Origin: Actinomycetes bacterium
GTDB taxonomy: Bacteria; Actinomycetota; Thermoleophilia; Solirubrobacterales; 70-9
Assembly (NCBI GenBank): GCA_016861045.1
Contig: BOKP01000004.1
Location: 1 to 64,000 of the forward strand
DNA: 64,000 bases
Reading direction: 5' to 3'
Shown: positions 51,328 through 55,621 of the stretch, one piece after another
Position numbering within the stretch: the stretch's first letter is position 1
Layout of the letters: the number at the start of each line of letters is the position of its first letter
The notes under the pieces: model-generated
Seen by the model: the letters and a program-made list of their open reading frames with translations, nothing else
What the model was told of the DNA's origin: nothing
Database searches by the model: none
Position numbers and translations under genes: made by a program

Positions 51328-53889
51328 ATGGAAGGCTCGGATGTCCTGAGCGGGGGGAACGTCGAGGAGCGCGAGATCTCGATCGAGATGCGCTCGGCGT
51401 ACCTCGACTACGCGATGAGCGTGATCGTCGGCCGGGCGCTGCCCGACGTCCGCGACGGCCTCAAGCCGGTCCACCGGCGGGTGCTCTACGCGATGCACGA
51501 CCTCGGCCTGCAGCCGAACCGGCCGTACCGGAAGTCGGCCTTCATCGTCGGCGAGGTGATGGGCAAGTACCACCCGCACGGCGACCAGTCGATCTACGAC
51601 ACGCTCGTGCGGATGGCGCAGGACTTCTCGCTGCGCGAGGTCCTCGTCGACGGCCAGGGCAACTTCGGCTCGATCGACGACGACCCGCCGGCGGCGATGC
51701 GGTACACGGAAGCGCGGCTCGCGAAGCTCTCGACCGAGCTGCTTCGCGACATCGAGGCGGAGACGGTCGACTTCGGGCCCAACTACGACGAGTCCTCGGC
51801 GGAGCCGCTGGTCCTGCCGTCGCGATTCCCGAACCTGCTCGTCAACGGCTCGTCGGGGATCGCGGTCGGGATGGCGACGAACATCCCGCCGCACAACCTG
51901 CGCGAGGTCTGCGGCGCGGTCCAGGCGTTCCTCGACGACCCCGGGGTCGACACGGAGGCCCTGATGAAGCACGTCAAGGGCCCCGACTTCCCGGGCGGCG
52001 GGACGATCATGGGCTCGGAGGGGATCCGCTCCGCCTACCGGTCCGGGCGCGGGTCGGTCCGGGTCCGGGCGAAGGCCCACATCGAGCCGATCAAGGGCGG
52101 CAAGGAGGCGATCGTCGTCTCCGAGCTGCCGTTCATGGTCCGCAAGGGCGGCGACGGCGGGCTGATCACGAAGATCGCCGACCTCGTCCGCGACAAGAAG
52201 ATCACCGAGATCTCCGACCTGCGGGACGAGTCGGACCGCTCCGGGATGCGGCTCGTGATCGAGCTGAAGCGCGACGCGATCCCGAAGGTCGCGCTCAACA
52301 AGCTCTACAAGCACACGCAGATGCAGTCGACCTTCGGCGTCAACATGGTGGCGCTGGTCGACGGCGTGCCGCGGACGCTGTCGCTGAAGGAGGCGATCCG
52401 CCACTACGTGCTGCACCAGCGCGAGGTGGTGATCCGGCGCACGCAGTACCAGCTCCGCCAGGCGGAGGCACGGGCGCACGTGCTCGAGGGGCTGCTCGTC
52501 GCGCTCGACAACCTCGACGCGGTGATCGCCCTGATCCGCGGCTCGGCCAGTCCGGACGAAGCGCGCGCCGGCCTGATCGAGAAGTTCGACCTCAGCGACA
52601 TCCAGGCGCAGGCGATCCTCGACATGCGCCTGCAGCGGCTGACGGCGCTCGAGTCGGACAAGGTCCGCGCCGAGCACGCCGAGCTGGTCGAGCGGATCGG
52701 CGAGCTGCGCGCGATTCTCGGCGACGAGAAGCGGATCGACGGCGTGATCGGGACCGAGCTCGGCGAGATCGCGGAGCGCTACGGCGACGAGCGTCGCACC
52801 GAGATCACCTTCGCCGAGGGCGAGGTCGACATCGAGGACATGATCGCCGACCAGCAGATGGTGATCTCGCTGACCGCCTCGGGCTACGCGAAGCGGCTGC
52901 CGCTCGCGACCTACCGCCAGCAGCACCGCGGCGGCAAGGGGGTCAGTGGGGCGAACCTGAAGGAAGGCGACTACATCGAGCACCTGCACATCTGCTCGAC
53001 CCACGACTTCCTGCTGTTCTTCACCAACCGCGGCAAGGTCTACCGGCTCAAGGTCTACGAGCTGCCGGAGGGCTCGCGGACCGCGCGCGGCAAGGCGCTC
53101 GTCAACGTGCTGCCGCTGCGCGAGGGCGAGCGGGTGATGGCGGTGATCCCGACCCGCGACTTCAGCGAGGGCCGCTACCTGGCGTTCGCGACCGCCGGCG
53201 GGCTGATCAAGAAGACCGAGTTCACGCAGTACAACACGCCGATCCGCGCCGACGGGATCATCGCGATCAAGGTCCGCGACGGCGACGAGCTCGTCCAGGT
53301 CCGGCTGACGAGCGGCGACGACGACATCCTCATGGTCTCGCGCTCCGGCAAGGCCTCCCGGTTCAGCGAGGAGAGGGTGCGGGCGATGGGCCGCGACACC
53401 TCGGGGGTCCAGGGGATGAACGTCTCCGACGAGGTCGGCGGCGAGCCGAACCGGGTGCTGGCGATGGACATAGCCCGCCCCGACACCGACCTCCTCGTCG
53501 TCACCGAGAACGGATACGGCAAGCGGACGTCGATCGAGGACTACCCGGTCAAGGGCCGCGGCACGAAGGGCAACCTGACCGCGAAGCTGACCGAGAAGAA
53601 GGGCGGCCTGGCCGGCGCGCTGATCGTCCGCGAGCACCAGGACCTGCTGTTCATCTCGGTCAACGGGATGGTCCAGCGGACCTCGGTCAAGGGGATCTCA
53701 CGGATGGGGCGCGCGACCCAGGGGGTGAAGGTGATGAACATCGCCGACGACGATCGCGTCAGCGCGGTCGCCCTCGTCGTCGAAGAGCAGGAGGCCGGGG
53801 CCCTGCCCGAGGGCGAGCCGGTCGCCGAGTCGGAGCTGCCCCTGAACGGAGCCGCAGTCGACGGCTCCGCCGGCGCCGGGGCGGGCTGA
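51328..53889 (+). CDS. gyrA: DNA gyrase subunit A
   Basis: 853 residues. Breakage-reunion domain: [40 protein letters not shown] (quinolone-resistance region with Ser/Ala near KYHPHGD), [20 protein letters not shown] (catalytic Tyr about 131). C-terminal beta-pinwheel with the GyrA-box-type [20 protein letters not shown], required for wrapping. The C-tail is Ala/Gly/Glu-rich and disordered. gyrA follows gyrB by 55 nt. All catalytic positions are kept. Confidence 0.97.
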
Positions 53890-54075
53890 GGTCAAGGCCG
53901 AAGGCCGAAGGGCCGCCGCCCCTCTGCCGCCCGGGCGCGCGAGCGGGCCGCGAACGAGCTCTCGCGGCGCCCCGCCCGGGCCTCGCCCGGGTCCCGGCCC
54001 GGCCGGCGCGGAGCATCCGGTCGGAGTGGTCCATCTGCTTCAATCGTCCGACCAGAGAGAGGAGGTGGTCCGAAG

Positions 54076-54120
54076 TTGGATGACATGGTTTCCGGGACCC
54101 TGGAGGTGACGGGCCGCTAG
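54076..54120 (+). CDS. possible 14-residue peptide ORF
   Basis: A TTG-initiated ORF encodes MDDMVSGTLEVTGR and stops. GAGAGGAGGTGG is 5-15 nt upstream, the strongest Shine-Dalgarno sequence in this gap. Just after the stop, GGGCCGC-tag-GCGGC and further GC hairpins follow and then a 12-bp stem at 54226. No downstream gene on this strand would make it a leader of anything in the window. It may be a real micropeptide or part of a small RNA. I do not know a family for certain. Confidence 0.35.
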   Translation: MDDMVSGTLEVTGR

Positions 54121-54225
54121 GCGGCGCGCGGGCCGCCCGGCGAATACCACCCGGGCACCGGCGGAGCCGACGGGATCGGGGCTGGTCCCGCCGATCGACC
54201 ACCGTCCTCCGTCCTCGACCGCACA

Positions 54226-54265
54226 GCGGGAGGCCGCCGCGGCGCCGCCGCGCGCGGCCTCCCGC
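54226..54265 (+). terminator. 12-bp perfect hairpin, probable terminator
   Basis: GCGGGAGGCCGC and GCGGCCTCCCGC pair perfectly around a 16-nt GC loop, followed by TCGTTCG. It closes the 53890-54376 gene gap region. There is no T-run, so it would be an L-shaped/actinobacterial-type terminator. It fits both the gyrA transcript and the small ORF unit. Confidence 0.6.
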
Positions 54266-54376
54266 TCGTTCGGGCCGCCGCCGCGGCGGGCGCTCGTGAC
54301 CCGCGGCCCGGTGCCGGTGGCCTGCGGGCGGCGGGGGTGCGCCGGCCCGGCGTCCCGGTGCGCGGCCGCGCGGCGG

Positions 54377-54898
54377 TTACGGGCTCGGCACGTAGCCGCG
54401 ATCGGGGGCGACGTCGGCGAGATCGCCGCCGCGCCGCTGGGTGAGCGCCGCCCAGCCGTAGCCGGCGCCGAGGCCCGGGACGTCGTCGAGGTCGAAGCGA
54501 TAGCTCCAGCGGCGCCGCTTCGAGGTCAGGGCGGCAGCGCCGACCGCCCTCGGCGCTCCCCTCGCGGGAACCCGGAAGATCGTCGATCCGAGAGCGATGT
54601 ACTCGTAGGGGCTGCGCCGGCCGCCGCGGGTGTTGATGATGATCGCGGGCCGCTCACCGGGCCGCGCCGGGCGGGCCGGCGACCGCATCGTCACCGAATG
54701 GCGAACGACGCCGAGGTCGCGGGCCGCGGTCGCTCTGGTGATGTCGACCCGCCCGTGGCCGGACAGGTAGGGGGTGTCGAAGCGCGGATCGCGGACGACC
54801 CGCGCGCCGCTCGCAGCCTCGGCGACCGCCGCGAGCAGGAGCAGCGCGACCGCCGCGACGGCGAGCCCCGGCACCGATCTCGAGCCTGCGCGCGTCAT
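54377..54898 (-). CDS. secreted protein of unknown function
   Basis: 173 residues from ATG 54898: signal peptide SVPGLAVAAVALLLLAAVAE, then a beta-rich domain (HGRVDITRATAARDLGVVRH, RPAIIINTRGGRRSPYEYIA, RRRWSYRFDLDDVPGLGAGY, GWAALTQRRGGDLADVAPD). No known motif, one possible exported domain of 140 residues. The upstream in-frame extension is GC artefact. It is isolated from other genes. Confidence 0.6.
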   Translation of the reverse strand: MTRAGSRSVPGLAVAAVALLLLAAVAEAASGARVVRDPRFDTPYLSGHGRVDITRATAARDLGVVRHSVTMRSPARPARPGERPAIIINTRGGRRSPYEYIALGSTIFRVPARGAPRAVGAAALTSKRRRWSYRFDLDDVPGLGAGYGWAALTQRRGGDLADVAPDRGYVPSP

Positions 54899-55036
54899 CT
54901 GCCCAGCACCAACCCGCCCAGGACCCGAAAGTAGCAGTGCCGGGGCGATCCCCGCCCGCCGGCACCGGGCCCGGCGGTGAAGCGGCGGGCCCGCCATCGC
55001 ACGCGGGCAGGCGCGCCCGGGCCGGCGCCGCGGGAG

Positions 55037-55621
55037 TCAGGCGGCGGCGGCGGCGGGCAGCAGGTAACGCTCCCAGCTCGGTGGCGGCTTCGGAGCGGCG
55101 ACGCGGATGAAGACGGTCGGTCCGGGCGCGCGCGGCGCGGTGCGGGGATGCATCTCGATCTCGCGCGGGAGGCGGTTTCCCTTGCGCCGGTTGCAGGGCC
55201 CGCAGGAGGCGACGATGTTCTCCCATACCGACTTGCCGCCGCGGCTGCGGGGGATGACGTGGTCGACCGTCAGCCGCCCGCGCTCGCTGCCGCAGTACTG
55301 GCAGGTCCAGGAGTCGCGCGCGAGCACGGCCTTGCGCGTGATCTTGCGGCGATGGACGTCGCGCGGCACCCGCACGTAGCTGACCAGGCGGATCACGAGC
55401 GGCCGGTCGAGCGCCAGCCGCTCGGAGTGGAGCGCCCGCCCGCCGCGCTCGAGGATCTCGGCCTTGGCCTTGAGGATGAGGACGGTGGCGCGGCGGACGC
55501 TGCAGACGTGGAGCGGCTCGTAGCTGGCGTTGAGGACCAGCACCCGGCCGCCGATGACCGTCCCCACGCCCGGGCCCTCCGTAGCCCGGGCCCCGCGGCC
55601 CGGTGCGGACACCACGCTCAT
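55037..55621 (-). CDS. HNH endonuclease
   Basis: 194 residues. VLVLNASYEPLHVCSVRRAT and VLILKAKAEILERGGRALHS begin a domain typical of actinobacterial HNH proteins; the HNH core is DSWTCQYCGSERGRLTVDHV, IPRSRGGKSVWENIVASCGP, CNRRKGNRLPREIEM, with the two CxxC pairs for Zn and the D-H metal-binding histidine. This standalone form is a housekeeping gene in many actinobacteria; its physiological role is not established. ATG 55621 is used; a later start (GTVIGGRVLVLN) is possible. It lies 14 nt from pheA on the same strand. Confidence 0.9.
   Translation of the reverse strand: MSVVSAPGRGARATEGPGVGTVIGGRVLVLNASYEPLHVCSVRRATVLILKAKAEILERGGRALHSERLALDRPLVIRLVSYVRVPRDVHRRKITRKAVLARDSWTCQYCGSERGRLTVDHVIPRSRGGKSVWENIVASCGPCNRRKGNRLPREIEMHPRTAPRAPGPTVFIRVAAPKPPPSWERYLLPAAAAA

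Follow-up and report, generated by a model that had tools for sequence, protein, structure and literature searches.

The window (the whole 64,000-nt stretch of DNA analysed here) contains a small RNA element located behind gyrA, and the next gene in the window is on the opposite strand. An initial annotation had described at this place a 14-codon TTG ORF with an excellent GGAGG site, and both are present: the ORF (54076-54120, + strand) consists of 14 codons and TAG and translates as LDDMVSGTLEVTGR, where the TTG start would give Met, and GGAGG at 54061-54065 lies in the top match to the 16S rRNA tail in the window. When 20-nt segments were scanned with a step of 2 on both strands (n = 63,980), the duplex between the ribosome-binding site (RBS) and the 3' tail of 16S rRNA ranked first with 16 pairs and -30.0 kcal/mol, compared to -22.7 kcal/mol for the runner-up independent site; the tail was a typed-in sequence that is present in 16 of 61 genomes, including one of the window's genus, and the window's own genome has no exact match to it by a longer or a shorter pattern. 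Positions 54060-54071 are invariant in all 44 rows of alignment A1, most of which were selected by a pattern that itself contains GGAGGTGGTCC, and AGGAGGTGRTCC was found 7 times in the 2.7-Mb genome. The micro-ORF and its RBS exceed chance, and the micro-ORF is genuine and belongs to a larger element.

Table 1. Features of the RNA element and its flanks (positions in the window).
Feature	Position	Strand	Basis
Extended -10-like promoter element TGCTTCAAT	54036..54044	+	column counts, 46 rows
Ms_IGR-5 (RF02471) homologue, from the 5' end to hairpin P4 inclusive	54050..54215	+	RF02471, model R1
Extended Shine-Dalgarno block AGAGAGGAGGTGGTCC, 16 possible pairs with 16S rRNA 3' end	54056..54071	+	duplex -30.0 kcal/mol
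Micro-ORF TTG...TAG, 14 codons and stop	54076..54120	+	reading-frame list, frame statistics
Pseudoknot 5' strand GGGACC (codons Gly-Thr)	54094..54099	+	covariation
Helix P2 5' strand, within last codons	54105..54113	+	89.1% of cells paired; 4/9 pairs changed on both sides
Helix P3 5' strand CGCTAG (last sense codon and stop)	54115..54120	+	90.9% of cells paired; 0 pairs changed on both sides
Helix P3 3' strand	54137..54142	+	covariation analysis
Conserved GGCGAATACC motif, part P3, part internal loop	54139..54148	+	alignment A1
Helix P2 3' strand	54151..54159	+	covariation analysis
P4 inner hairpin with pseudoknot loop	54174..54196	+	81.3% of cells paired; 5/5 counted pairs changed on both sides
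Pseudoknot 3' strand GGTCCC in P4 loop	54184..54189	+	covariation
Perfect 13-bp hairpin, presumed transcript end	54225..54266	+	hairpin search; similar placement in relatives

The reading frame was examined in relatives collected in different ways. A pattern scan, in which the pattern fixes the stop codon, found at least 119 loci, by title mostly from Actinomycetes, Acidimicrobiia and Thermoleophilia; a few have other phylum labels and are perhaps misbinned. The 119 pattern matches listed and 31 Thermoleophilia loci, picked by a looser expression that also includes the stop, gave 150 loci with 132 unique variable regions. Among these, 129 of the 132 regions have a start and remain open in the frame of the stop, compared to 1 and 41 in the other two frames, and internal stops occur in 1 region in that frame versus 90 and 92 in the others. 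The lengths of the same regions leave remainders of 0, 1 and 2 on division by three in 19, 35 and 78 cases, and start and stop are nonetheless in frame in the 129. The frame is lost in one variable region (L009), whereas two others (L076 and L092) and one model match (L221) have none of the six allowed start codons. All 16 relatives fetched by blastn position alone carry the ORF, which ends in TGA in three of them (L181, L188 and L189).

Selection by the ORF was avoided in a scan with our own covariance model, R1, which matched 113 of 296 genomes of the phylum at E ≤ 0.01 and gave no match in the remaining 183 under strict filters. Most of the loci used to train R1 had been selected by the stop-fixing pattern, and some training genomes (G000, G037 and G046 at least) contribute a few of the matches. 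We tested 110 of the 114 matches, leaving out the three weakest, short ones and that in G297. An ORF of 9-17 codons starting 0-9 nt 3' of the RBS is carried by 108 of the 110, where one counted miss (L231) was scored as such although an ATG-TAG ORF of 15 codons is present. For unique sequences, 102 of 104 pass the ORF test compared to a mean of 24.0 and a maximum of 35 in shuffled sequences (n = 300), and with ATG, GTG and TTG as the only starts 83 pass compared to 13.8 (maximum 25). The starts are TTG (48), ATG (26), CTG (12), ATT (11), GTG (6) and ATC (5), and the stops TAG (79), TGA (26) and TAA (3). The stop lies 17 nt 3' of AGGTG in 94 matches and 16 nt in 10, together 104, at the place of helix P3. 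In the ten matches with 16 nt (L287, L289, L291 and L294-L300) AGGTG is read in another frame and start and stop are still matched. Four further matches (L218, L234, L278 and L293) pass with stops at other distances (10-24 nt); in L293 AGGTG and the stop are 12 nt apart when the first start is used and, as judged by eye, 16 nt apart with the following one. The model-match and variable-region counts are not independent because the sequences are related. The reading frame is conserved across several classes of the phylum, and the peptide is not.

The ten other-frame matches and L293 (families f5, f9, f52 and f70) form a divergent subtype with GGAGGTG in another frame, mostly without a visible pseudoknot, and with the peptide end GGGSS in several members.

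Freedom of the peptide is seen in 330 close pairs of 197 unique ORF front parts, where changes number 222, 310 and 244 at codon positions 1, 2 and 3. Synonymous changes account for 101 of the 474 single-change codons (0.21), compared to 0.19 expected, so constraint on the amino acids is not apparent in the variable codons. The last codons of the ORF are conserved, but they are located on paired RNA. Conservation of the frame, with its start and stop, but not of the variable residues makes a stand-alone small protein, which had been offered as one interpretation, unlikely.

Of 883 variable residues in the relatives' ORFs, 255 are serine, mostly encoded by AGT and TCT, and the variable ORF segment has 50% G+C compared to 68% downstream. 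The serine richness and low G+C of the ORF front would fit an open ribosome entry site; the serine excess could be a codon signal or a mere effect of low G+C.

The computations demonstrate that the 3' half of the ORF is engaged in P2 and P3 and, together with the P4 loop, in a pseudoknot that covaries. In the alignment of 44 sequences, 87.7% of the cells are paired compared to 79.5% (sd 0.6) when shuffled and 31-46% when slid, and the covariance analysis suggested in the initial annotation yields changes on both sides in 13 of the 26 pairs; the scored structure was named from the same alignment on which it was tested, and the rows were cut by an automatic location of GCGAAT that is unreliable, with 1 of the 45 chosen loci skipped. 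For further pair types, one of five structure measures, 24 of 500 shuffles reach the observed value, and the minimum-energy fold of the window element alone is not better than that of shuffled sequences. Over 100 R1 matches the pseudoknot helix has a mean length of 5.28, compared to 4.01 in permuted pairings (maximum 4.3, n = 200). Its variants still pair (GGGAC/GTCCC, GTGAC/GTCAC, GCGACC/GGTCGC, CGACC/GGTCG, AGACC/GGTCT, GGATG/CATCC and others), and in some loci it is reduced to four pairs. Among the ten other-frame matches and L293, an ORF-loop helix longer than 4 nt is found in L298 alone, a weak match that perhaps retains the pseudoknot. Two of the loci ending in TGA (L181 and L188) have CTCTGA at the end of the ORF and a downstream P3 partner of the TCAGAG/CTCAAAG type, read by eye. 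The constant GGTCC of the RBS is a possible alternative pairing partner for the ORF segment, and a switch is therefore conceivable.

The GC hairpins noted earlier behind the ORF are present and belong to this covarying fold. The proposed masking of the RBS by 54197-54211 did not stand: the segment pairs with the RBS in the minimum-energy fold, but that fold is at shuffle level (z = 0.33), and the longest uninterrupted complement of the RBS, 8 nt, is located elsewhere and is equalled in length by 26% of shuffles. We dropped the masking segment, as its complementarity is within chance; by hand, 54197-54211 was assigned to hairpin P4 as its 3' strand.

Some loci carry additional segments 3' of the ORF. 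L190 (G044) has a tandem segment copy including a GTTGTCCC loop that resembles the pseudoknot loop, and the P3 loop of L101 (Mycobacterium sp. ZLKRG22) contains an inserted repeat segment, as if insertions were tolerated there. In L074 and L115, for example, GCTGGAC in the P3 loop is complementary by eye to TCCAG-like letters behind P4; the two may form an additional helix, which the window does not show.

Transcription would start near 54051. The promoter-like columns of the window and 45 Thermoleophilia relatives (46 rows) have T in 34 and G in 38 at -22/-21 and T39 T32 C29 A38 A32 T39 at -19 to -14, with A in 45 of 46 rows at the putative +1; a consensus promoter scan called none. At the 3' side, 54225-54237 pairs with 54254-54266 in 13 perfect pairs around a loop of 16. 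The hairpin of the presumed 12-bp terminator is thus present with one pair more than described, whereas a terminator scan of 53000-55200 scored none because the hairpin has no T-run. In 18 of the 20 relatives examined (exceptions L008 and L102), too, the longest hairpin, of 8-15 bp and different sequence, is located directly 3' of the element. Such placement suggests that the 3' hairpin is terminator-like and marks the transcript end, which would give a transcript of about 215 nt from the putative start near 54051.

The 46 Thermoleophilia loci examined for gene order, one genome being represented twice, have gyrA in the fetched stretch in 24 cases, upstream on the same strand in 23; in the other 22, some with short fetched stretches, gyrA was not seen. 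The next downstream gene, by a simple gene caller, is on the + strand in 63, on the - strand in 45 and absent from the calls in 11 of the 119 listed among at least 119 pattern loci, and the ten pattern loci read have downstream neighbours of different kinds. The earlier description of an attenuator-like leader followed by a gene on the other strand is accurate on both points, with the downstream gene on either strand in relatives. Judged by gene order, the element appears to stand alone.

In the window, the gene following the element (54377-54997, - strand) would code for a protein of 206 aa that, judged by eye, may begin with a signal sequence.

Computation establishes homology between the window element and Ms_IGR-5, an sRNA of Actinobacteria. 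The Rfam family RF02471 matches 54051-54219 (23.9 bits, E = 0.0017) without reaching its gathering score of 45, and we therefore call the element a distant homologue and not a filed Ms_IGR-5 member. At gathering thresholds tRNA is the sole Rfam match in the window, and at E ≤ 10 RF02471 is the sole match in 53880-54400. Model R1 scores the window 121.6 bits, with the window row belonging to its training set. Homology is supported by bridging sequences. blastn across 61 genomes (own included) found matches in 49, of which 47 overlap the block 54034-54192 by hand count, with 71-85% identity in the others' sequences. RF02471 at E ≤ 10 matches 34 of 41 genomes (own included), one of them above the cut-off; this locus in G046 (45.5 bits, followed by 43.5 and 37.8) is linked to the window by blastn. 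Of 14 control genomes, 2 match at the lax E ≤ 10, none above the cut-off. When 18 loci were scanned with RF02471, 9 passed the cut-off, 4 fell below it at E ≤ 0.01 and five (L224, L231, L246, L278 and L294) had no match at E ≤ 0.01; Mycolicibacterium (L060) scored 175.5 bits, Nocardioides (L061) 124, Salinispora (L087) 99.4 and Cellulomonas (L066) 84.5. The RBS block and the GAGGTG, CGCTAG, GCGAAT and CACC motifs follow in identical order in the Rfam alignment. In contrast, the window copy has another genomic neighbour, the Rfam structure line contains no pseudoknot, and the Rfam type is sRNA without an ORF.

In the mycobacterial loci the RNA sits between a preceding gene and a following gene whose proteins we take to be PabC-like and Rv0813c-like, respectively. 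This placement agrees with the published finding that IGR-5 overlaps ncMSMEG15794c of M. smegmatis (PMC10454040). A smORF with a transmembrane domain has been predicted in the 5' UTR of Rv0813c (PMC11133741), presumably an ORF other than the micro-ORF of Ms_IGR-5. Ribosome protection of IGR-5 was seen in M. abscessus and M. smegmatis, and the same Ribo-seq paper states that classical non-coding RNAs also give footprints (PMC4974804). RNA-seq supports IGR-5 in S. lividans (PMC8079986), and in S. avermitilis it matches a separate sRNA unit (PMC8780764); a term search of the main text of an RNA polymerase RIP-seq study (PMC11077062) gave no mention of it. Neither an ORF or pseudoknot in Ms_IGR-5 nor a function for it was seen in the papers examined other than the original one, which PMC4109619 cites as Li et al., RNA 19, 74-84.

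Leader ORFs are known for a conserved frame with a free peptide, where the passage of the ribosome counts. The act of translating the micro-ORF likewise seems to be what matters, as a tiny frame is kept while its amino acids change freely. A regulatory RNA, already proposed in the initial annotation, is the best reading of a conserved frame within a covarying RNA with an unconstrained peptide. We consider a stand-alone, translation-coupled small RNA that switches with ribosome passage the probable explanation (about 60%). Ribosomes would bind tightly at the RBS and initiate weakly, mostly at non-AUG codons; those crossing the ORF would melt the pseudoknot, P2 and P3, and ribosome-free RNA would close, so that the RNA would behave as an attenuator leader does, but with no gene in cis. 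Ribosome supply or initiation would set how much RNA is engaged relative to closed, and this ratio could decide RNA stability, ribosome capture or contacts in trans. As there is no common downstream gene, the RNA itself should carry the output. A bolder extension, which we put forward tentatively and at less than even odds, is that these are phylum-wide stand-alone "ribosome gauge" RNAs, in which a 16S match close to the maximum and a weak start codon let ribosome supply or initiation fidelity set a trans-acting pseudoknotted RNA, and the ORF is translated solely for the act of translation.

A ribosome sponge, in which the RNA chiefly retains 30S subunits by pairing over 16 nt with the 3' end of 16S rRNA and the ORF merely releases captured ribosomes, would shift translation between leadered and leaderless mRNAs. 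It would draw on the strongest anti-SD site in the window, the mostly non-ATG starts and the published ribosome footprints on IGR-5 (PMC4974804), but the sponge by itself leaves the covarying pseudoknot and helices unexplained, and we consider it unlikely. Still less probable is a dual-function sRNA with an active peptide. Retention of the ORF in 108 of 110 R1 matches and a recurrent T-x-E-V-x-x pattern near the C-terminus of many would speak for it; however, the recurrent residues coincide with paired RNA motifs, 10 matches read the motif in another frame, and the synonymous fraction is 0.21 versus 0.19, without amino-acid constraint in the variable codons, so we dropped peptide activity as the principal explanation of the ORF.

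That the ORF is incidental to a non-coding sRNA accords with the Rfam type of Ms_IGR-5 and the strong RNA-level conservation, but the frame statistics and the interchange of TAG, TGA and TAA make it very improbable. A cis-acting attenuator leader of the downstream gene has equally poor prospects: it has the anatomy of a leader-peptide attenuator and a same-strand downstream gene in 63 of the 119 listed loci, but a regulated same-strand gene does not follow in the window, 45 of those loci likewise have the next gene on the other strand, the downstream genes in ten loci read differ in kind, and hairpins follow the element in 18 of 20 relatives. We dropped the cis leader on the strand evidence.

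Comparisons with known systems place the translation-coupled RNA among related designs. Attenuator-derived RNAs that act in trans include the Sinorhizobium trp leader with peTrpL, which belongs to the trp operon. Like that leader, the window RNA has a short leader-type ORF that would have effects beyond a cis gene, whereas the Sinorhizobium leader is part of a transcription attenuator (PMC7298713) and the window RNA has no cis operon and an unconserved peptide. The sRNAs SgrS/SgrT and SR1/SR1P also combine an sRNA with an ORF; in contrast to the unconstrained variable part of the window ORF, their peptides are functional, and SR1P is highly conserved (PMC11133741). Ms1 and 6S RNA are likewise stand-alone RNAs in Actinobacteria, but the sole Rfam match of the window element at E ≤ 10 is RF02471, and Ms1 adjoins an HAD hydrolase gene in most species (PMC9130861); an identity with either was dropped on these grounds.

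If the translation-coupled reading is true, a family filed by Rfam as sRNA would prove to be coupled to translation, in mycobacteria and Streptomyces too, and the mostly non-AUG starts of a stand-alone RNA would make initiation itself the likely signal.
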